From assembly GCF_000003195.3 (NCBI RefSeq), contig NC_012878.2, positions 9,660,386 to 9,724,385 on the forward strand: 64,000 nucleotides of DNA. Reading direction: 5' to 3'. Shown in pieces: positions 4,010 through 64,000 of the stretch. Position 1 is the first letter of the stretch. Every line of letters begins with the position of its first letter. A program made the translations under genes and the position numbers. The stretch comes from Sorghum bicolor. Lineage: Eukaryota > Streptophyta > Magnoliopsida > Poales > Poaceae. The notes beneath the pieces were generated by a model. That model saw only the letters and a list, made by a program, of their open reading frames with translations. It did not search any database and was not told where the DNA came from.

Positions 4010-5227
4010 TGTTGGTATAAATTAACTACACCTTAATAATGATTATAATCAGATTATTCGCAAACGCACAGATATATACTGATGAACACTTCACCAAGAT
4101 TAACCCAGTTTTAATATCGAACCCAAAGAAACAGTAGGTAATTTATAACTTAGCCTATAATTTCTTAATCTAAGGGGGCACAAACAATCTAGAAACTATT
4201 GAGGATGAGGAAATACTAATGTACTCATGTTTCAATAATCGGTAACCTTTGTATAGTATCGTCTTATCGAGCAAGTAACCCAAATAGGGGGAGAATCAGA
4301 GTAACCCCCTACCAGGCACCTATAAGCCTATCGATCCTATCAACGGAAAGTGGACTACAGAGGAATCAACGCAGCTATAAAGTCACCTATGCGAACTACC
4401 ACTGTCCGGCTGATCAGGGGACATTCACAAGCAACCACAACCTAGACACCACGTCTACGCTACGAATCACTACTCCGACCTAGGAGCTACCCAAATCGTA
4501 ATATTCAATATAATATGAGTTGCAAACCAAAGAACGAATACAAATAAGTTGCTTACTTGAATCAGAAGGGTAAATACAAAAAGTACCTCAGAACGCGGTT
4601 CCGGGCGAGGGAGCCGAATCCCGAAGAATACAGCCACGAAGAAGCACCGACAGGCCGGGACTCCTCTAGAATCTCTACTCCTCTACTCTATCTCTCTCTA
4701 ATTTCTATCTTGATTGCTAGTCTAGATCTTGTGGATCTCTATCTAATGCTCTGGCTCTTCATCTCTTGATCTGGCCTCCTCTAGGAGGGGGTCTTGCCTT
4801 CTATTTATAGCCTGGTGGGGTGAACGTGCGCCGTTGGATCAAACCGACTTAACAAGCGGTCGAGATGGCTCCTCTGAGGCGGTGGAGGAACCTTCCGGAA
4901 GGGGGGCGCCAACCCTAACCCTAGGAGGCCGAGCGGCGCCAGGGCGTGGCTGGCCGACCCCACCTGGTGGTGTCTGCTGGTCCCCTTGCTCCAAGTGTCT
5001 TCTGGAGTCTTTCTGATCCCTCTGGTGTCTTCCTTCCGTCGCGGATAAGTTTCGTGGTTAATTGACACTTAAAATCTCTCTTTTCAGCACTTTCTGAAAT
5101 AATCCCTGGAAAACACAGAATATACAAAACTCGTGGAAATTGTCAGTGATAACCCTATTCTAGTGGTTATTCATTTCTGGTGGAGGAATAAATGCTAATA
5201 AATTTTATAAGTTAACAAGTGTCAACA
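4010..5227 (-). repeat. Element A 3' LTR
   Basis: This 1218-bp LTR starts TGTTGGTATAA and ends GTGTCAACA on the plus strand. It aligns with 34042-34986 plus 49337-49606. It contains the hairpin motif shared with other elements here (4056-4073), a conserved LTR block (4328-4402) and a TATA box on the minus strand at 4801-4810. Confidence 0.92.
4801..4810 (-). promoter_or_regulatory. Element A LTR TATA box (3' copy)
   Basis: On the minus strand this reads CTATAAATAG, a strong plant TATA box. The same 10 bases occur in the 5' LTR at 34831-34840, which would be the copy that drives the element's transcript. Confidence 0.7.
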
Positions 5228-5242
5228 ATTACCCCCAGACTT
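5228..5242 (-). other. Element A polypurine tract
   Basis: On the minus strand the 3' LTR is directly preceded by AGTCTGGGGGTAAT, the G-rich tract expected to prime plus-strand DNA synthesis. Confidence 0.7.
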
Positions 5243-34041: not shown

Positions 34042-34986
34042 TGTTGGTATAAATTAACTCCACCCTAATAATGATTATAATCAGATTATCCGCAAGCGCA
34101 CAGATATATATTGATCAGCACTTCACCAAGATTAACCTAGTTTTAATATGGAACCCAAAGGAACAGTAGGTGATTTATGACTTAGCCTATAATTTCTTAA
34201 TCTAAGGGGGCACAAACAATCTAGAAACTATTGAGGATGAGGAAATACTAATATACTCTTGTTCCAATAACTGGTAAACTTTGTATAGTATCGTCTTATC
34301 GGGCAAGTAACCCAAATAGGGGGAGAATCAGAGTAACCCCCTACCAGGCACCTATAAGCCTATCAATCCTATCAACGAGAAGTGGACTACAAAGGAATTA
34401 ACACAGCTATAAAGTCACCTACGCGAACTAACACTCTTCGGCTCATCAGGGGACATTCACAAGCAACCATAGCCCAGACACCACGTCTACGCTACGAATC
34501 ACTACTCCGACCTAGGAGCTACCCAAATCGTAGTACTCAATATAATATGAGTTGCAAACGAAAGAACGAATACAAACAAGTTGCTTACTTGAATCAGAAG
34601 GGTAAATACACAAAGTACCTCAGAACGCTGTTCCATGCGAGGGAGCCGAATCTCGAAGAATACAGCCACAAAGAAGCACCGACAGGCCGGGACTCCTCCA
34701 GAATCTCTACTCCTCTACTCTATCTCTCTCTAATCTCTATCTTGATTGCTAGCCTAGATCTAGTGGATCTCTATCTAATGCTCTGGCTCTTCAACTCTTG
34801 ATCTAGCCTCCTCCTGGGGAGTCTTGTCTTCTATTTATAGCCTGGTGGGGTGAAAGCGCGCCATTTGATCAAACCGACTTAACAAGCGGTCGAGATGGCT
34901 CCTTAGAGGCGTTGGAGGAAGCTTTCGGAAGGGGGGTGCCAACCCTAACCCTAGGGGCCCGGGCAGTGCTAGGGTGGGGCTGGCCG
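34042..34986 (-). repeat. Element A 5' LTR, inner part
   Basis: Aligned with 4010-4960. Contains the hairpin motif (34088-34105), the conserved block (34360-34433) and a minus-strand TATA box (34831-34840). Element B interrupts it after GGCCG at 34982-34986. Confidence 0.9.
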
Positions 34987-37900
34987 TGTAACAGAACCGC
35001 CTAAATTATAAGAGATTAAGCCTAATAGTGACCATTTGCACAATTGAACCATCAATCTTAAGCCCATATAATCCCGGTAGTCCGTTAAATCTCGAAGGAT
35101 TTTGAACCACAAATCATACATACAGCCAAGATCGTAATAAGTCCAGCGATCGTCGTCCACAGTTACATTCAGTTCACAACATTCAACGATTACATCGGAG
35201 TTCATCGAAGGTTATTACAAACCAAGTTCAAGAGTAGCGGAAGCATCGTAGTTTTAAAATAACACACACTTAGTCTGATACAGTGCCATGATTTGATCAT
35301 TCCCACAACAGCAAAAGAAGAGATAGAGTGACCATCGCCCTTGGTCTAGTCATCACCCATTGCTGGGTACAAGGAGTGAATGCAATACCCATAGTACATC
35401 TGACCATCTGCAAAACAACATGGGAATGGAACCCTAAGTACGAGAATGTACTCAGCTAGACTTACCCGTCATAAATCAAAGATAAAAGACTCTTCAAGGA
35501 TCATGAAGGCTGTATAGTGGGGTAGCTGAGACCTTTTTGCGTAAAAGAGTTACCCATCTAGAAGTATATTCTGATATCCTCCTTTCTTTTATTTAGCTCA
35601 AGTTAAGTATTATCATTACCTATCATCTAGATTTGCACCTGTACTATTGCAAACAAGTGTTGTGATATGATAGTACCTCATCATAGGATTCACAATTCAT
35701 TACTTATCGTAACCTAAGTGTTTCATAGTCCTTACTATGAGGACAGGGCTCATCTCAAGTGCTCACTATCTAGGAGCGATGGCGATTCGAATCGATTTCT
35801 AACCAGCTGGTGAGTTTATTCCCCACACAAACCACACTCACTAATCAAGTGAGCTACAGGTCACCATGTTACACTATCCAGGACCAATTCGCGAGTTCGA
35901 CAGGCACCGCCCGTACCCGAGGACCGTTCCGGTGACTGAGGTATCCAAGGTATACTAAGGTTGCGCGCCGCGCCCTCGTCGTTCTCCTCAACCATCACCA
36001 ATACAGCGCGTACATCGGGCCGATTCTCGGCATGGATAGTGTTCAGGCTTCGCGGCCAAAATGACTTATCCTTCCAGCTAAGTGTGGGGCATACGTTCAA
36101 CATGACAAGAGGGCCGTCAACGATCGGTCCTTAATCAACATAGGCAGGGGCACTATGGTCAACACCCCCATAAGACCCTGCCCGGTCTCACTTTTCTTTC
36201 CCACACTTGGTTACTTTTCAACATAGCATTGACAACTAACATACAGGTATCCACCTATATCTCGCAGGTGACAGGAACTGCGCTAAGCAAGCTAAGCATA
36301 GACTCCGAGCCTATCTACATAGGACAAGGTAAATAAACAGGTGGTAATATCAAGGAGTAAATATGCATCAACGGTATCAATCAACTCCTACCACTTAAAT
36401 GCAGCATAGTAAGAAAAATCATGTTATAACAATTAAGTTAGCGAGAATAGGGAGACTTAGAATGCTTCGGGGCTTGCCTCTCTCGAAAGTGCTAGGCCTG
36501 AGGTCCGGGCACTCCTGCAGGTCTTCTTCCGGCTCTGGTCCTTGTGGAAGTTCCTGCTCCTGGGTCTCCTCCTGCTCCTCGGATCCCACCTCGTTCTCCT
36601 ACGAGCCTATATGATGCATGTGTGCTTATGAGTGGAGTGCAAGATGCCCGAGGTGCAATGCTTATGCAAGTTAATACAAGATGGTCATGACATGGTGCAT
36701 AGATGAAACAAGAAACTATTTTCTACAAGGTAGTCAACATCCTCCAAGGACATGTAACCCAAAGCAAAGCATCTATTGCATTCTCTTCTACAAGTTATTA
36801 GTAACCAGCAAGCTATCATGGTGCTTCAAAGATACACCAAACATCATTTATTTTATTTATCTCATGCACAACAAGGTTTTATTTATTAACTATCCTTAGG
36901 CCTACAACAATAGCATATACCTCTGATCATCAATAAATTCCACAAAAAATACAGTAGATAACTGGTTATTTATAAAGTCTACCACAAATCTTTCATAATA
37001 TTTAGACAGTTAATTTGGCCTAAACAAATATCACAAGTTCACTCAATATAATTAAGTGTAAATACCCTACTGGTGTTAAAGTGTCAAACAATAGAACTCA
37101 TATTTTTATAAATTACTTACTAACATAAGAAATGTCCACAAAAATTTTTAGATTATTTTCCTGATCAAATTATTTATTAAAAATCATAAACCACGGCATG
37201 CAAACAATTAAATCATCATAAATTAATTCCTACAGCAAATATTGTGTTACATATTTTTTCCAGAGACTAAACATCTATGCAAAGCTAACAAAACAAGAAT
37301 TACATTTTTCTGAGTTGTATTCTATTTACTATGTATTTTCTAAATATCAGCAAAAACATGGAATAATTATATTTACACAGAAAAGTTACGTAAACATGAC
37401 ATGCAAGTACACCAAGTTGTAGATCTGGATTTATAGAACACACCAAACTTTATTTGACCATTTTTGGAGCTGTAGAACTCATGTTATGAAATAAATATGA
37501 TTTAAATGAAAACGCTAGATCTACCTAGATCCACACCCAGCCCGACCCCGTGCGGCTGACAGTGGGGCCCCGACCCCACCGCCCAGTGTAACAGGGAGGA
37601 GGGGCACCTCCGGCGAGTGAATCTCACCGGCGGTAAGGTCCCCGACCACGGAGCACCAGCATGCTCCCTGCAACGAGGCGCACCCGATGGTGCCCTCGGC
37701 TTGGCTGGAAAACAGCCAGCACACCCCTGCCGACGTGCATGGCGGCACGGCGGTGCTGCTCGCCGTGGCCAGGCCACTCCAGAGGGGTAGAGCGCTCACG
37801 TAGCACCGCCGGAGCTTGCTCACGACGTCCCGAACCCAATGCGCTCAAGAACAGGCGAAACAAGGCAAGAGAGGGAGGGTTTCAGCGTGGCGGAGCACTC

Positions 37901-38774
37901 CGACAAGGTCGGGCGAAGTCCGGCGAGCGATTGCGGTTTCACGGATGGCTTTCACCTCGGTCGAGCGTGCGCAGAGGCTTACCGCGGCGAAGGCGAGCAC
38001 GGTGGCGGCTTTGGCGCAGAGAATGTCCCGCGGAAATGGCCGGCGGCAAGCGGCGGAGCTTCGGCCAGCAATGGCGCTGCGGCGGAACAGAATGGGAGCG
38101 GCTGCGGGCGAAGGAGAGAGGCGACAGAGGGAAATGGGGGTGCCTGGGGGAGTGGAGCGGCGTCCCGACCGGGTCATGCCGGTCGGAGCCGGGCGACCGC
38201 GGCCACGTTGCCGACGTACGGCCGCCACATGGCCGGTGCCGGGTGGAGAAGGTCGGGCGCGTCCACCTGCCCCCTTTTCTCTTTTTTTTTGAATTCCTTT
38301 TTCCCAAAAATTTTAAATGCCATTTTTGAATCCCTTGCAGACTTTTTCAGGAGTTGGGGTAAAAAGAAGGATTGCTCCCCATAAAATACTCTACCACTTT
38401 GCTTTAAGGTGCAAATCGAAATTCCCAACAGGATTTGAATTACAGATTAAAACTAGTGTTACGTTTTTAAATGAACTCATTTAGGGAACTTTTGTATAAA
38501 ATTCATTTCTCAAATTCTTGAGCTCCAAAAATTTCACAAAAATATTCTTAATTCTTCTAAAACATATTTCAACTTATTTTGGTCATTACAAGCAATTTTA
38601 AAGCAAGCACACAAATTTTATCATATTTAATCCATTTAAATTAAGCACATGAAATCACAATTTAAATGCTACTATATATGCTTGTGTGATGCTATGCTCA
38701 TGCTATGCTTGACGAAATATGCTTATGAGTGAGTTTATGAGACTAAGTGCATGCTTAACACCTAGGGTGTTACA
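34987..38774 (-). repeat. Element B 3' LTR
   Basis: A 3788-bp LTR running TGTAACAGAACC to GGGTGTTACA on the plus strand. A GC-rich core (about 37530-38280) makes long chance frames on both strands. It is 122 bp shorter than the 5' LTR, which has extra bases near 47960 and 48755-48825. Confidence 0.92.
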
Positions 38775-39242
38775 ACCGTTCTCCCAGGGAAATCTCGTCC
38801 CGAGATTTTGGGTTACTAACCATTTCTTATGAAATTTTGGATAAACTGTTTTTAGGTAATCCTCTATTTCCCAGGTGGCATCTCTATCATCGTGATGACT
38901 CCACACCACCTTGTAGGTTTTAACAACTCTATTCCTGGTTACCCTCTCCTTGGTATCCACGATACCCACTGGTTGCTCTTTATATTCCAAATCTGCTTTT
39001 AACTTGATCCCCCGAGGTTCAATCCTCTATTCAGGTACCTTCAAATGCTTTTTTAGCTGGGATACATGAAAAACTGGAAAGATCGAGCTTAACTCTTCAG
39101 GCAACTGAATCTTGTAGACCATAGGGCCCTTTCGTTCTATTATATGATACGTTCCCACATACCTAGGTGTAAGCTTACTTCGAACTCGGAAGCGCTGAAC
39201 TTTCATCATCGGTGTAACCTTAAGGTAAACATAGTCACCCAC
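38703..39242 (-). pseudogene. pol: Element B integrase C-terminus and chromodomain
   Basis: The frame 39242-39027 holds G-D-Y-V-Y-L-K-V-T-P and F-H-V-S-Q-L-K, the GPY/F-like module at the integrase end. 38990-38703 holds the chromodomain: Y-K-V-V-W-S-H-H then A-T-W-E and a C-terminal helix. The first aromatic cage position is not evident, as in other plant chromovirus chromodomains. The frame runs past the LTR edge at 38774. In chromoviruses this domain directs integration to H3K9-methylated chromatin. Confidence 0.85.
38775..38790 (-). other. Element B polypurine tract region
   Basis: Minus strand CCTGGGAGAACGGT before the LTR, preceded by GGGACGAGATTT, a sequence typical of the end of plant chromovirus interiors. 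Confidence 0.65.
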
Positions 39243-43554: not shown

Positions 43555-44598
43555 CTACTCACTATGGTCGCTGTCCATGCTGGAACCTTCCTCGTCCTCA
43601 TCTCCACTCACGGCTGCCACCATCTCTGGGTCCTCATCCATCTCATTCTCAGAGTCTAACTCAGCTGCTTCAGGTAGGTGGTGAGGGTGGAGTTGGTTAT
43701 GCAGCTGATGGATCTCCTCATGCAGGTTCTCATTATACTCCTCAACATTAGCTAGCTGCTGCTCAAGCTCTAGCTGTCGAGCCCTCAGGGTGTCCTCCTC
43801 ATGCCAGGCTTCATTCCTCTGACCAAGCACATGAACTAGCATGCGCTCGCAGTTCCTGTGAGCTGTGGTCACCCTGTCCCTCTGCTCTCTCACTGCTAGC
43901 AGATCTTGACTCAGCACACTGTTCTACTGGACCGCCTGGTCCCTCTCCAGAGTCATGCAAGCCAACTCTGCCTGCAGCCTCTCAACCTCACTATCGAACT
44001 CACGCTGCAGCTGGCGCTTCTCGTCCTGAACTGTTAGAAGAGATCCAGACAAATGCCCCAAGCAGCGCTCTAGACCCCCATCGGTCTTCATCAAGGTAAA
44101 CATAGCACTCATAACTGTACTGTCACTGTGCTGATCCTCATCCACACTCCTCTCTAGAGCATTCACCTCGGACTGATCCCACACCGAAGTGTAGGGGTCA
44201 CCCCGGGGAAACACCCCAGCGAAGGTGTGGGCCAGCTCCTGCGGAAACCTCTCCATGATGTCCCTCAGAACCGCAAAAGCATCCCTGCTAGCACCCTGGA
44301 AAGGCATGCTGCCTCGGGACTCGTATACCCAACCACCCTAGGCGGGGTCACCTCCACTGGTAGGGATCACTGCCTCAATCCCCTCGAGGGTCCCGTCACC
44401 GAGCTGCTCTCTGTTCCAATAGTAGCGAGGTTCCCTTCCTTCAGGATACCCCATCGAGCTGAGCACCCTCCATAGCAAGGTAGGCATCCCAAACTCTTCT
44501 AGGAACTTACTCTTGTGATGCGAGCTCCTAGGTGCTAACTGGTGGCGAGGGGCCCGCCCACCGGTGGACTTGCGAGCGGTGAGCCTAGTGCGTGCCAT
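43555..44598 (-). pseudogene. Element B ORF0 with histone H3-tail-like N-terminus
   Basis: An extra ORF lies between the 5' LTR and gag. Residues 2-22 match the histone H3 tail at 17 of 21 positions (A-R-T-R-L-T-A-R-K-S-T-G-G...). H3 lysine 9 and serine 10 are kept; lysines 4, 14 and 18 are Arg, Arg and His. The rest is not histone: an aromatic segment, then a helix-rich middle and C-terminus (about 44060-43690) that looks like a coiled coil, then an acidic tail. In-frame TAG stops at 44338-44340 and at the 43921-43923 boundary split one reading frame of about 348 codons. Function unknown; element C has the homologous ORF. Confidence 0.8.
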
Positions 44599-45407
44599 CT
44601 GCTAAAAATAGAATACCTTGGGTAAGACTGAGGATTATCTTTTATTATTTTAATTGAAATTGGGATAGATTTAAATAAGGGGAAGAATTAAGTATTGATA
44701 TGAAATGAACATGATGCATGCACGAAACTTACGATCTCACAAACTTAGAAACAAAAGTCAATACTAATCGGTATATGCGGTGGCACACAACGTTCTCTCA
44801 TAACGTAAATAGCATTCTATGCGAGAACGTGGTTAGCGTACCTACAGAAAACTCATTTCAGCCCAACCACAGTATGAACATGCAAAACAAGAATTTAAAA
44901 CTATGGACCCCACACACATAGGTACCACACCTATGTATATATGATGTGCCACTACCCACATCATCGCCCTAGTGATGGCATCGTCTCTCAGGATGAAAAC
45001 TCCCAACATGTGGTACTGCTCTCAGGCACACTGGATATGCGTGCATGACACAACACCCTAACGCACTTCCCTAGATCGGCAGTGTATCCGACCATGCGCT
45101 CACAGCTCCCACTTACCGGGACGTAGAGGAAATTGATCCATTCATTACCACTCAAGTGAATGGTACTCATACTATTACACGCCGTATGAGTGACGAAATA
45201 GAAATATGATGCATAACCCCCAAATCAGTACTTAACTAGCCACCTTAGAGTCCTTAACTGGGCATAAAGGATATGACCATGGCACACTGTGTAGTTTTCC
45301 AAAAACTCATTTTAACACCTTGATTACCATTAATAGGTAGTTAACTTTTATTAACCAGTTTAAGTTTGTTTTAGAATGTACTTATGAACATTAATTCGCT
45401 GAACCTT
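44599..45407 (-). other. Element B leader between primer site and ORF0
   Basis: Noncoding. The ORF0 start is preceded on the minus strand by a T-rich stretch ending TTTTTAGCAG, a good splice-acceptor match directly abutting the ATG. Confidence 0.55.
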
Positions 45408-45421: not shown

Positions 45422-48400
45422 TGTAACAGAATCGCCCAAATTATAAGAGATTAAGCCTAATAGTGACCATTTGCACAGTCAAACCATTAAGCTTAAGCCC
45501 ATATAATCCTGGTAGTCTGTGAAATCTCGAACGATTTCAAACCACAAATCATACATACAACCAAGATCATAATAAGTCCAGCGATCACCATCCACAGTTA
45601 CATTTAGTTCGCAACATTCAACGATTACATCGGAGTTCATTGAAGGTTATTACAAACCAAGTTCAAGAGTAGCGGAAGCATCATAGTTTTAAAATAACAC
45701 ACACTTAGTCTGATACAGTGCCATGATTTGATCATTCCCACAACAGCAAAAGAAGAGGTAGAGTGACCATCGACCTTAGTTTAGTCATCACCCATTGCTG
45801 GGTACAAGCAGTGAATGCAATACCCATAGTACATCTGGCCATCTGCAAAACAACATGGGAATGGAACCCTGAGTACGAGAATGTAATCAGCTAGATTTAC
45901 CCGTCATAAATCAAAGATAAAAGACTCTTCAAGGATCATGAAGGCTGTATAGTGGGGTAGCTGAGACCTTTTTGCGTAAAAGCGTTACCCATCTAGAAGT
46001 ATATTCTGATATCCTCCTTTCTTTTATTTAGCTCAAGTTAAGTATTATCATTACCTATCATCTAGATTTGCACCTGTACTATTGCAAACAAGTGTTGTAA
46101 TATGATAGTACCTCATCATAGCATTCACAATTCATTACTTATCATAACCCAAGTGTTTCATAGTCCTTACTACGAGGACTGGGCTCATGTCAAGTGCTCA
46201 CTATCCAGGAGCGATGGCGATTCGAATCGATTTCTAACCAGCTGGCGAGTTTATTCCTCACACAAACTACACTCACTGATCAAGTGAGCTATAGGTCACC
46301 ATGTTATACTATCCAAGACCAATTCGCGGGTTCGACAGGCACCGCCCGTACCCGAGGACCGTTCCGGCGACCGAGGTATCCAAGGTATACCAAGGTTGCG
46401 CGCCGCGCCCTCGTCGTTCTCCTCAACCATCACCAATACAACGTGTACATCGGGCCGATTCACGGCCCGGATAGTGTTCAGGCTTCGCGGTCGGAACGAC
46501 TTATCCTTCCAGCTAAGTCTGGGGCATGCGTTCAACATGACAAGAGGGCCGTCAACGATCGGTCCTTAATCGACACAGACAGGGGCACTACGGTCATTAC
46601 CCCCATAAGACCCTGCCCGGTCTCACTTTTCTTTCCCACACTTGGTTACTTTTCTACATAGCATTGATAGCTAACATACAGGTACCCACCTATATCTCGC
46701 AGGTGACAGGAAATCACCCGACTTCTGCCGCGCTAAGCAAGCTAAGCATAGACTCCGAGCCTATCTACATAGGACAAGGTAAATAAATAGGTGGTAATAT
46801 CAAGGAGTAAATATGCATCAACGGTATCAATCAACTCCTACCACTTAAATGCAGCATAGTAAGAACAATCATGATATAACAATTAAGTTAGCGAGAATAG
46901 GGAGACTTAGAATGCTCCGGGGCTTGCCTCTCTCGAAAGTGCTAGGCCTGTGGTCTGGGCACTCCTGTAGGTCTTCTTCCGGCTCTGGTCCTTGCGGAAG
47001 TTCCTGCTCCTGGGTCTCCTCCTGCTCCTCGGGTCCCACCTCGTTCTCCTACGAGCATGTATGATGCATGTGTGCTTATGAGTGGAGTGCAAGATGCCCG
47101 AGGTGCAATGCTTATGAAAGTTAATACAAGATGGTCATGACATGGTGCATAGATGAAACAAGAAACTATTTCTACAAGGTAGTCAACATCATCCAAGGAC
47201 ATGTAACCCAAAGCAAAGTATCTATTGCATTCTCTTCTGCAAGTTATTAGTAACCAGCAAGCTATCATGGTGCTTCAAAGATACACCAAACACCACTTAT
47301 TTTATTTATCTCATGCACAACAAGGTTTTATTTATTTAACTATCCTTAGGCCTACAACAATAGCATATACCTCTGATCATCAATAAATTCCACAAAAATT
47401 ACACTAGACAACTGGTTATTTATAAAGTCTACCACAAATTTTTCATAATATTTAGACAGGTAATTTGGCCTAAAAAAAAATCACAAGTTCACTCAATATA
47501 ATTAAGTGTAAATACCCTACTGGTGATAAAGTGTCAAACAACAGATTTCATATTTTTATAAATTACTTACTAACATAAGAAATGTCCTCAAAAATTTTTA
47601 GATTAATTGCATGATCCAATTATTTATTAAAAATCATAAACCACTGCCATGCAAACAATTAAATCAGCAAAAATTAAGTTCTACAGAAAATATTGTGTTA
47701 CATATTTTTCCCAGAGACTAAACATCCGTGCAAAGCTAACAAAACAAGAATTACATTTTTCTGAGTTGTATTCTATTTACTATGTATTTTCTAAATATCA
47801 GCAAAAACTTGGAATAATTATATTTACACAGAAAAGTTGCATAAACATGACATGCAAGTACACCAAGTTGTAGATCTGGATTTATAGAACACACCAAACT
47901 TTATTTCACTATTTTTGGAGCTGTAGAACTCAAGTTATGAAATAAACAAGATTTAAATGGATTTTTAAAAACCTATATTTAAGAAAACCGAGGCGAAAAC
48001 GCTAGATCTACCCAGATCCACACCCAGCCCGACCCTCGTGCTGCTGACAGTGGGGCCCCGACCCCACCGGCCAGTGTAACAGGGAGGAGGGGCACCTCCG
48101 GCGAGCGAATCTCGCCGGCGGTGAGGTCCCCGGCCACGGGGTGAGCACCAGCGTGCTCCCCGCAATGAGGCGCACCCAATGGTGCCCTCGGCTTGGCCGG
48201 GGAACGGCCAGAGCACCCCTGCCGACGTGCATGGCGGCACGGCGGCGCTGCTCGCCATGGCCAGGCCACTCCAGCGGGGTAGAGCGCTCGCGTAGCACCG
48301 CCGGAGCTTGCTCACGACGTCCCGAACCCAATGCGCTCAAGAACAGGCGAAACAAGGCAAGAGAGGGAGGGTTTCAGCGCGGCGGAGCCCTCCGATGAGG

Positions 48401-49331
48401 TCGGGCGAACTCCGGCGAGCGATTGCGGTTTCGCAGATGGCTTTCACCTCGGTCGAGCATGCGTAGAGGCTTACCGCGGCGAAGGCGAGCACGGTGGCGG
48501 CTTTGGCGCGGAGAATGGCCCGCGGAAACGGTCGGCGGCGAGCGGCGGAGCTTCGGCCAGCAATGGCGCTACGGCGGAACGGAGTGGGAGCGGCTGTGGG
48601 CGAAGGAGAGAGGCGACAGAGGGAAATGGGGGTGCCTGGGGGAGTGGAGCGGCGTCCCGATCGGGTCATGCCGGTCGGAGCCGGGCGGCCGCGGCCACGT
48701 TGCCGACGTACGACTGCCACGTGGCCGGCGCCGGGTGGAGAAGGGCGGGCGTGTCCGCGCACGGGGAAGGGGAGAGGAAAACGGGCCGCGCGGGCCGAAA
48801 GGGAGGCGGCCGGCCCAGCAGCGCCTGCCCCCTTTTCTCTTTTTTTTTAATTCCTTTTTCCTAAAAAGCTTAAATGCCATTTTTGAATCCCTTGCAAACT
48901 TTTTCAGGAGTTGGGGTAAGAAGAAGGATTGCTCCCCATAAAATACTCTACCACTTTGCTTTAAGGTGCAAATCCAAATTCCCAACAGGATTTGAATTAC
49001 AGATTAAAACTAGTGTTAGGTTTTTAAATAAAATCATTTATGGAACTTTTGTATAAAATTCATTTCTCAAATTCTAGAGCTCCAAAAATTTCACAAAAAT
49101 ATTCTTAATTCTTCTAAAACATATTTCAACTTATTTTGGTCATTACAAGCAATTTTAAAGCAAGCACACAAATTTTATCATATTTAATTCATTTAAATTA
49201 AGCACATGAAATCACAATTTAAAAGCTACTATATATGCTTGTGTGATGCTATGCTCATGCTATGCTTGATGAAATATGCTTATGAGTGAGTTTATGAGAC
49301 TAAGTGCTTGCTTAACACCTAGGGTGTTATA
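45422..49331 (-). repeat. Element B 5' LTR
   Basis: 3910 bp, aligned over its length with 34987-38774, with small indels and substitutions throughout, so clearly older than element E. Confidence 0.92.
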
Positions 49332-49336
49332 GGCCG

Positions 49337-49606
49337 GCCCCACCTGGTGGTGTCTGCTGGTCCCCTTACTCCGAGAGTCTTCTGGAGTCTTCCTGATCCC
49401 TCTGGTGCCCTTCTTCCATCGCGGATAAGTTTCATGGTTAATTGACACTTAAATCCCTCTTTTCAGCACTTCCTGAAATAATCCCTGGAAAACACAGAAT
49501 ATACAAAACTTGTGGAAATTGTCAGTGATAACCCTATTCTAGTGGATATTCATTTCTGGTGGAGGAATAAATGCTAATAAATTTTATAATTTAATAAGTG
49601 TCAACA
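49337..49606 (-). repeat. Element A 5' LTR, outer part
   Basis: Resumes the LTR after element B; matches 4960-5227 and ends GTGTCAACA before the CTTAA target copy. Confidence 0.9.
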
Positions 49607-49611
49607 CTTAA

Positions 49612-57818: not shown

Positions 57819-58308
57819 AGGATGAATCTCGTCCTCGAGATTCGGATGGCTCAAAAAGATGAGGGTACTCAGATTTTAAATCATCCTGTCTTTTCCAGGT
57901 TGCTTCATCTTTTGAATGCCTGTTCCACTGTACTTTGCACATTCTTATGACCTTGCTCCTGGTGATTCTTTCTGATGTCTCCAAAATTCTTACAGGATAT
58001 TCTTTATAGGAAAGATCTTTTTGAACATCGAGCTCTTCCAGAGGTAACTGTTCCTCAGGTATTCTTAGACATTTCTTAAGTTGTGACACATGGAAGATAT
58101 TGTGAACACTAGAGAGTTGCTTCGGTAATTCTAGCTGATAGGCAACTTCTCCTCTCCTAGCAATGATCTTAAATGGTCCCACATACCTAGGAGACAACTT
58201 CCCCTTGGTATGAAATCTCTTGACTCCTCTCATAGGTGAGACCTTGAGATACACATAATCTCCTATTTGAAATTCCAAATCCCTCCTCCTTGTGTCAGCA
58301 TAACTTTT
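57817..58308 (-). pseudogene. pol: Element C integrase C-terminus and chromodomain
   Basis: Open from 58278 to 57817 (153 codons). It begins in the GPY/F-like module (G-D-Y-V-Y-L-K-V-S-P, Y-V-G-P-F, F-H-V-S-Q-L-K) and ends with the chromodomain (C-K-V-Q-W-N-R-H, E-A-T-W-K, Y-P-H-L-F). A TAG at 58309-58311, in place of an expected Gln codon, separates it from the integrase core. The chromodomain itself looks complete for the plant chromovirus type. Confidence 0.9.
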
Positions 58309-62991: not shown

Positions 62992-63963
62992 CTAAGGGTC
63001 AAGGTTGGTGCCGGTGTTGGGGTCCTCATGGTTCCTTGGGGGCGACTCTGCGAGGATGAGTGGTACTTCTTCAACATGACTCCCCTGCTGTTGCTTCAAC
63101 ATGGCGTTCTCAACAGCCAACTCGAGGTAGTCCTTCCTCAGGGCATCCAGCTCATCTGAGACTCGATCTAAGTCCGTGTTGGTTTGAGCCAAACATGCCA
63201 AGGTGGGTCGGATCCTGGGGTTCCCTACCCCAAGTGGTGCAGCAATGCTGCAAGATGTCTGACCACTCCGCCGGCGAGGTAGATAGCGATCTTCTTCCCA
63301 TGCAATATCAGCAAAGTGGCGGTCGCGGTTCACCACCATGGCTTGTCGGGCAGCGTCCCGGATGGCTGCTGCACGGGTAGTCCTGGCGGTGATCGCACGG
63401 TGGATGTAGCACACCCGACTTCCTTCTCGGATGTAAGCTTCAGTCTCCCAAAAACCAATGTAGTCAGGGTGGGTCCAATTCTCAGTGCGGTACTGTACGG
63501 TACACCGGGTGTGATAACGACGTGCGAGAGTAAGGAGCTTCGGGTGGTAGTAGGCGTCACCATGCAAGTCAAAATGAATCACCACTGTCCATCCCTTTGC
63601 CAAAAGCGCGCCATGGTGATCACGGCTATCTCCATCACTGTCACCATCACCACCATTGTCGTGGTTGTCCGAGTCAGTGCTGTCAGAACTATCTCCATCA
63701 TCAGGGTCACCAGCACCCTCCTGTTCATCTTGTTCCATGGGCTCCTCTTCGGTGTCCTCATCCTCAACAGGTTCCTCTATCATGACTTCCTCCTCAGCAT
63801 CTTCATCCATGGGTACATCCATGGTTTGTTCCTCTTGTGGATCCTCCTCCATGTCTCTCAGTGCCTCAACCAGATGCGGGGGAACATGCTTGCCTAGAGT
63901 GAACCTTGTCCTCTTGTTGGGCATGATGACACGTTTGCGAGCTGTCCACTTGGTATGGGCCAT
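62992..63963 (-). CDS. Element C ORF0 with H3-like first residues
   Basis: An intact 323-codon ORF upstream of gag. Residues 2-10 read A-H-T-K-W-T-A-R-K, 7 of 9 like histone H3 positions 1-9, including T-A-R-K(9). Residues 37-115 are strongly acidic (Asp/Glu/Ser). Residues about 125-245 hold aromatic and His/Cys-containing segments and T-R-A-A-A-I-R-D-A-A-R, and residues 260-300 look like a coiled coil. The start follows TTTTCTTATAG on the minus strand, a good splice acceptor. Homologous in position and architecture to 44598-43555 of B. No known function. It is the only uninterrupted element ORF here apart from the F fragment. Confidence 0.85.
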   Translation of the reverse strand: MAHTKWTARKRVIMPNKRTRFTLGKHVPPHLVEALRDMEEDPQEEQTMDVPMDEDAEEEVMIEEPVEDEDTEEEPMEQDEQEGAGDPDDGDSSDSTDSDNHDNGGDGDSDGDSRDHHGALLAKGWTVVIHFDLHGDAYYHPKLLTLARRYHTRCTVQYRTENWTHPDYIGFWETEAYIREGSRVCYIHRAITARTTRAAAIRDAARQAMVVNRDRHFADIAWEEDRYLPRRRSGQTSCSIAAPLGVGNPRIRPTLACLAQTNTDLDRVSDELDALRKDYLELAVENAMLKQQQGSHVEEVPLILAESPPRNHEDPNTGTNLDP

Positions 63964-64000
63964 CTATAAGAAAAGATATGAGGATTAGAACAAAATATTT

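Follow-up and report, generated by a model that had tools for sequence, protein, structure and literature searches.

The window analysed here is a stretch of 64,000 nucleotides of the Sorghum bicolor genome (contig NC_012878.2, positions 9,660,386 to 9,724,385) and carries a long terminal repeat (LTR) retrotransposon, element B, whose open reading frame 0 (ORF0) starts with a near copy of the N-terminal tail of histone H3. ORF0 lies on the minus strand at 43555..44598, comprises 347 codons and a stop, and opens from the ATG at 44598 with MARTRLTARKSTGGRAPRHQLA. The H3-like N-terminus—Met plus 21 residues at 44533..44598, minus strand—agrees with H3 1-21 at 17 of 21 positions, the differences being K4R, Q5L, K14R, and K18H. 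This agreement had been claimed by an earlier sequence-only reading and is confirmed by direct comparison and by a phmmer search against PDB, in which residues 1-24 align to histone H3 with an E value of 7.6e-6; the range originally given for it, 44536..44598, covers Met and 20 residues, with A21 falling at 44533..44535, whereas the 17/21 match stands. The probability of at least 17/21 agreement by chance is 4e-18, as judged by the residue frequencies of 60 ORF0 proteins. The remainder of ORF0 is unlike histone, as also claimed: none of the 60 PDB matches listed for a query of 61 residues extends past residue 29. Pfam detects no histone domain in ORF0 of element B (P0001), in ORF0 of the second window element (P0002), or in the related locus L036. 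The H3 tail is present—17/21 in element B and 19/21 in the L036 family—and no histone fold is seen. The window copy of ORF0 features in-frame TAG codons at positions 87 and 225 of 347 and is thus broken; the frame is open in 6 of 28 genome copies, which were selected by their start and include the window copy (L007).

Element B is bounded by LTRs of 3.8-3.9 kb, the 5′ LTR at 45422..49331 and the 3′ LTR at 34987..38774 (both minus strand), each with CGGCC at its outer end, which represents a 5-bp target duplication. In the aligned pieces, the two LTRs share ~94.5% identity, corresponding to an age of ~2 million years at an assumed rate of 1.3e-8. After the LTR stands TGGCATTGGAGCAAGGTTC, which is taken here to resemble a Met-tRNA primer site, and the order is 5′ LTR, ORF0, gag and pol frames downstream, and 3′ LTR. 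Long LTRs, 5-bp duplication, Met-tRNA-like primer site, and gag-pol order are those of Tekay/Del elements. The integrase chromodomain, placed at 38703-38990 by the sequence-only reading, is present but weak: the Pfam match (E 0.0068), which scores 16.7 bits where the cut-off is 25.1, lies at about 38823..38960 on the minus strand and carries the Tekay-type motif RVTRNR, and position 38703 is already inside the 3′ LTR.

The second chromodomain element of the window belongs to a different family, C. Its ORF0 (P0002; 62992..63963, minus strand) is open over 323 aa and starts at 63934..63963 (minus strand) with MAHTKWTARK, which agrees with H3 1-9 at 7/9 positions; its first 40 residues alone yield no PDB match up to E 10. 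The integrase chromodomain of this element lies at 57853..57966 on the minus strand, with a Pfam E value of 0.0055 that is below the cut-off. Tekay chromodomains are recognized by (K/R)X(L/T)RX(k/r) and EEXTWEXE at the integrase C-terminus, and corresponding motifs are found in element B (RVTRNR..RDATWEIE), in family C (RITRSK..DEATWKRQ), and in a third family, D (RITRSK..EEEATWERE), the second motif being kept only partly in B and C. As aligned here, the chromodomain of element B has non-aromatic residues at cage positions one and three, and family C features a possible Tyr at the first.

The H3-like start is shared by relatives in other grasses. Sixty ORF0 sequences (P0001-P0060) were compared, 2 from the window and 58 from databases, with hosts including Miscanthus floridulus, Urochloa humidicola, Digitaria exilis, and Paspalum vaginatum; 4 were found with the N-terminal 60 residues of P0001, 21 with P0002, and 34 with the distant P0024 from Urochloa, itself included. 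The H3-like start is present in 32/60, and in the other 28 the alignment to the nearest relative begins at residue 21 or later, except for P0045 (Digitaria), a gene model with its start lost that begins at residue 6. Among the 32 starts, which were picked by a motif that fixes position 3 (T/N), position 6 (T), and position 9 (K/R) so that the counts at these positions are partly built in, identity to H3 is found for A1 in 28, R2 in 25, T3 in 31, K4 in 27, Q5 in 6, T6 in 32, A7 in 17, R8 in 29, and K9 in 31. Further along, S10 is identical in 17 and T11 in 23, and K14 and K18 in 0; residue 7 is Pro in 13/32. The exceptions to the constancy of K9 are from Digitaria, where it reads R in P0052 and also in P0045. 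The annotation treats these two Digitaria exilis sequences as host genes; they have additional sequence upstream and different C-terminal parts, and are either gene-model artefacts or domesticated copies. A basic C-terminal motif, SPPR[KR][RK], occurs in 22/60 sequences and in neither ORF0 of the window.

In the Sorghum bicolor genome, the starts fall into several families. Family B counts 719 starts with ≤3 mismatches, against 0 for a reversed-pattern control. The listed family B starts have AGG at position 4, and two copies have AAG and hence K4; the R4 of the window copy thus seems to have arisen inside family B. L036 and L050, of a B-like family, read MARTKQTARKSTGGRAPRGQLAPR, with 19/21 identity to H3, and L061 differs by one further residue. 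M[AF][RH]TK[WF]TARK opens 27/30 family C loci, the exceptions being L085, which is broken, L086, for which no start was found, and L089, in which ATG is changed to TTG. Family D turned up by its body alone in a search of the same genome with P0012 (121 of 788 candidates scored), the match beginning at about query residue 77-88. Of 20 stretches read from this search, 19 belong to family D; the remaining one, L111, is a fragment resembling family C in which no start can be read. All 19 family D copies open with MTRHLTC[RHC]KS, with R8 kept in 17 and replaced by H or C in one copy each: the A1-K4 half is lost, leaving the start one residue shorter, and T-C-x-K-S is kept in 19/19 readable starts, which makes K9 the more constant site compared with K4. 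The earlier claim, read from the window copy, that K4 is replaced and K9 alone selected is not supported, K4 being kept in 27/32 starts and R4 apparently having arisen inside family B; the greater constancy of K9 stands. Neither of the two outcomes that would have spoken against a function—most relatives lacking the start, or no conservation after capture—is found within the sequences reached.

The conservation of the tail exceeds that of the protein that carries it. Among 19 full-tail sequences of alignment A3, 102 of 171 pairs have a domain identity of <40%, and these pairs have a mean identity of 29% in the domain versus 72% in H3 residues 1-9. The tail ranks fourth of 318 nine-column windows, behind three overlapping windows of a helix around DAARQA. 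At the codon level, L036 and L029 differ with a proportion of synonymous differences (pS) of 0.73 and of nonsynonymous differences (pN) of 0.10 over codons 2-10, compared with 0.84 and 0.79 over the next twelve codons; between L008 and L036, the 315 body codons give a pS of 0.67 and a pN of 0.43, and codons 2-10 give 0.47 and 0.13. In ten pairs—six between ORF0 families and four with an H3.3-type gene, each comparison resting on few sites—pS is larger than pN over codons 2-10 in 10/10 and over codons 11-22 in 9/10. A profile of 31 ORF0s, none of them from family B, matches histone H3 chains at the N-terminus from E 0.0053; mTERF4, ANP32B, and MCM3 score above these chains (E 0.0042-0.0045), probably through acidic stretches. 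T6-x-R8-K9 is the best-kept part of the tail, A1-K4 is usually kept, and residues 10-21 have drifted in most families. These sequence comparisons support the ORF0 start as a true relative of the H3 tail kept across diverged elements, and an H3-like stretch in an otherwise unrelated protein that appears to be kept by selection is one mark of a histone mimic of a parasite.

The borders of the H3-like part suggest that a single exon was captured from an H3 gene that contains introns. In the H3.3-type gene L035 of the same genome, ...TTAATTAATGCAG|ATG is followed by residues 1-23 in one exon and then by GTAACA; T31 and Y41 in the next exon are taken here as H3.3 marks. ORF0 resembles this gene in that the H3-like residues directly follow an AG acceptor-like triplet, and differs from it by lacking the histone fold and by keeping chiefly residues 1-9. 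YAG stands directly 5′ of the ATG in 30/30 starts of family B (CAG), 27/28 of family C, and 18/19 of family D, the exceptions being TAT and TGG, and in addition before the L036-type and L052 starts. The pre-ATG triplets of four uninterrupted H3 genes (L041, L043, L048, and L058) are ACG, TCG, CCG, and CCG, and AAG precedes the ATG in the intron-bearing H3-like locus L034. The latter (G000:C1:55813019) is a decayed-looking H3 gene or pseudogene in which MARTKCTARKSTGGKAPRKQL is followed by intron-like sequence. The H3 likeness of B-type starts ends at residues 21-23. Synonymous divergence is too high to allow a direct DNA match to an H3 gene, with pS of 0.60-0.81 between L035 and L008 or L036. 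In element B, a T-rich, splice-acceptor-like stretch ending in CAG lies directly 5′ of the ATG (44599..44625, minus strand), and since YAG before the ATG resembles a 3′ splice site here, at 63964-64000, and at L036, L052, and the family D loci, ORF0 might be translated from spliced RNA.

For the body of ORF0 in family C, the predicted fold is that of a double-stranded RNA-binding domain (dsRBD), with the order alpha-beta-beta-beta-alpha. This domain comprises residues 136-214 of the model (63322..63558, minus strand), and the proteins of family C and its relatives consist of tail, acidic linker, predicted dsRBD-fold domain, and coiled coil. The Pfam family dsrm is not among the matches listed for P0002 and L036 (E ≤ 10), and in the remaining 30 sequences of A3 it does not occur among the 25 of 46 weak families listed. 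The second helix, in which KKxAK is expected in a dsRBD, reads T-x-E-A-x-I-x-DAARQA, and the RNA-contact lysines are not conserved. The likeness to plant HYL1, DRB4, DRB7.2, and DCL4 lies in the predicted fold, the ORF0 domain differing from them by these lysines and by the lack of a listed dsrm match in P0002 and L036.

The tail suggests, at the level of sequence, a role against or through the host gene-silencing machinery. ORF0 of grass Tekay-type chromoviruses would be an accessory protein that has long retained a copy of the H3 tail at its front, mimicking the H3K9 site and serving as a hook or decoy for silencing—a reading given a probability of about 0.5. According to it, an ancient capture would have taken up the first coding exon of an H3.3-type gene with introns, and selection would have kept the H3K9 site T6-x-R8-K9, usually together with A1-R2-T3-K4. 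Inside the nucleus, host H3K9 writers or H3-tail readers may take the ORF0 tail for H3, and ORF0 could thereby blunt or redirect the silencing of the element. K9 writers read R8 and K9; given the frequent Pro at position 7 and the missing K4 half of family D, they are better candidates than chromodomain readers. Candidate partners are the H3K9 machinery as well as SHH1 and ZMP, which are described as readers of unmethylated H3K4—SHH1 also of methylated H3K9—that help position Pol IV (PMC7617993).

A more tentative extension includes the body: the captured H3.3 exon fused to a dsRBD-fold protein would act as a nuclear anti-silencing factor, with its tail on H3K9 writers or readers and its body on the Dicer/DRB side, and would be a counterpart of influenza A NS1, which binds dsRNA. 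If so, one small protein would meet both arms of plant transposon silencing. An H3 1-9-like conserved tail on a predicted dsRBD fold makes ORF0 a testable protein.

The tail, methylated or unmethylated, may instead tie the particle or the integration complex to heterochromatin via host H3K9me readers and, hence, serve target choice and not anti-silencing. Of 75 places counted for ORF0 of family D, in which the ARTK half is lost, 22 fall within the distal 15% of chromosomes, compared with 0/38 for family C, in which ARTKxTARK is kept (Fisher p 7e-5; counts from the 121 scored rows, excluding 7 partial C-like rows and, from a small contig, 1 family D row). Fusions of group II chromodomains with a fluorescent protein are reported to localize to heterochromatin by an unknown mechanism (PMC12786077). 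However, only two families are compared, with copy survival, age, and chromodomain differences uncontrolled, and ORF0 is an accessory protein outside Gag-Pol without a demonstrated tie to the integration complex, which leaves this explanation unlikely. The N-terminus might also be constrained for reasons that do not involve histone readers, such as import into the nucleus, N-terminal processing, T3/T6 phosphorylation, or the binding of nucleic acid by basic residues. Such a constraint would suit a tail that is basic and keeps its threonines as well as its lysines. It is improbable in view of the loss of K14 and K18 in 32/32 starts and the retention of T6 and R8-K9 in order, not as bulk charge; moreover, a separate basic motif is available at the C-terminus in the 22/60 sequences mentioned above, though absent from the two of the window.

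The sequence-only reading had proposed a closed loop, in which the ORF0 tail, once methylated by enzymes of the host, is bound by the integrase chromodomain of the same element. Tail and chromodomain do occur within one element, and K9 is found in 31/32 starts. The premise that chromovirus chromodomains bind H3K9-methylated tails is true for group I but doubtful for Tekay, whose chromodomains are assigned to group II, described as lacking aromatic-cage residues, and given an unknown partner (PMC3350952, PMC6317226, PMC12786077). With the first and third cage positions of element B non-aromatic, at most a Tyr at the first position in family C, and Pro frequent at position 7, the closed loop is highly doubtful. 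That the tail is a captured H3 exon functionless ever since would explain the exon-like borders, with YAG before the ATG and the likeness ending near K23, but is hardly credible given that synonymous divergence is high while the amino acids are kept, and that different genera retain the site, as does family D, found without reference to the tail.

Histone mimicry itself is already known, the closest case being NS1. In this protein of a parasite, ARSK corresponds to H3 1-4, a stretch that is reported to span 4 residues close to the C-terminus and to mimic K4 (PMC10612106, PMC12937675). ORF0, by contrast, carries its 9-21 H3-like residues at the true N-terminus, K9 being the best conserved, is encoded by a retrotransposon, and was probably captured from a host gene. 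Within Tekay/Del elements, ORF0 of the Retrosat2 type is known from rice, with the statement that "no function can be assigned" (PMC3485330). Retrosat2, RIRE3, and RIRE8 share with element B LTRs of >3 kb, an ORF0 beside the gag-pol ORF1, and faster evolution of ORF0 than of ORF1; they differ in that metabolic enzymes were proposed for their ORF0 by modelling, and "histone" occurs 0 times in the main text of that paper (PMC3485330). Rice-named ORF0s are not among the protein-search matches for P0001, P0002, and P0024. Orchid Ty3/gypsy elements likewise carry an additional ORF with a host-type function in epigenetic control, in this case an AlkB-type RNA demethylase and not a histone mimic (PMC12786077). 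Among the titles and abstract openings listed in searches of open-licence PMC papers, no transposon-encoded H3-tail mimic appears. If the mimicry reading is true, ORF0 is such a mimic, and the use of mimicry to counter chromatin silencing may extend from animal viruses to plant retrotransposons.

Element B is inserted in a repeat (34042-34986 / 49332-49610), a second copy of which lies uninterrupted at 4010-5231; therefore, the window contains its own empty-site counterpart of element B.
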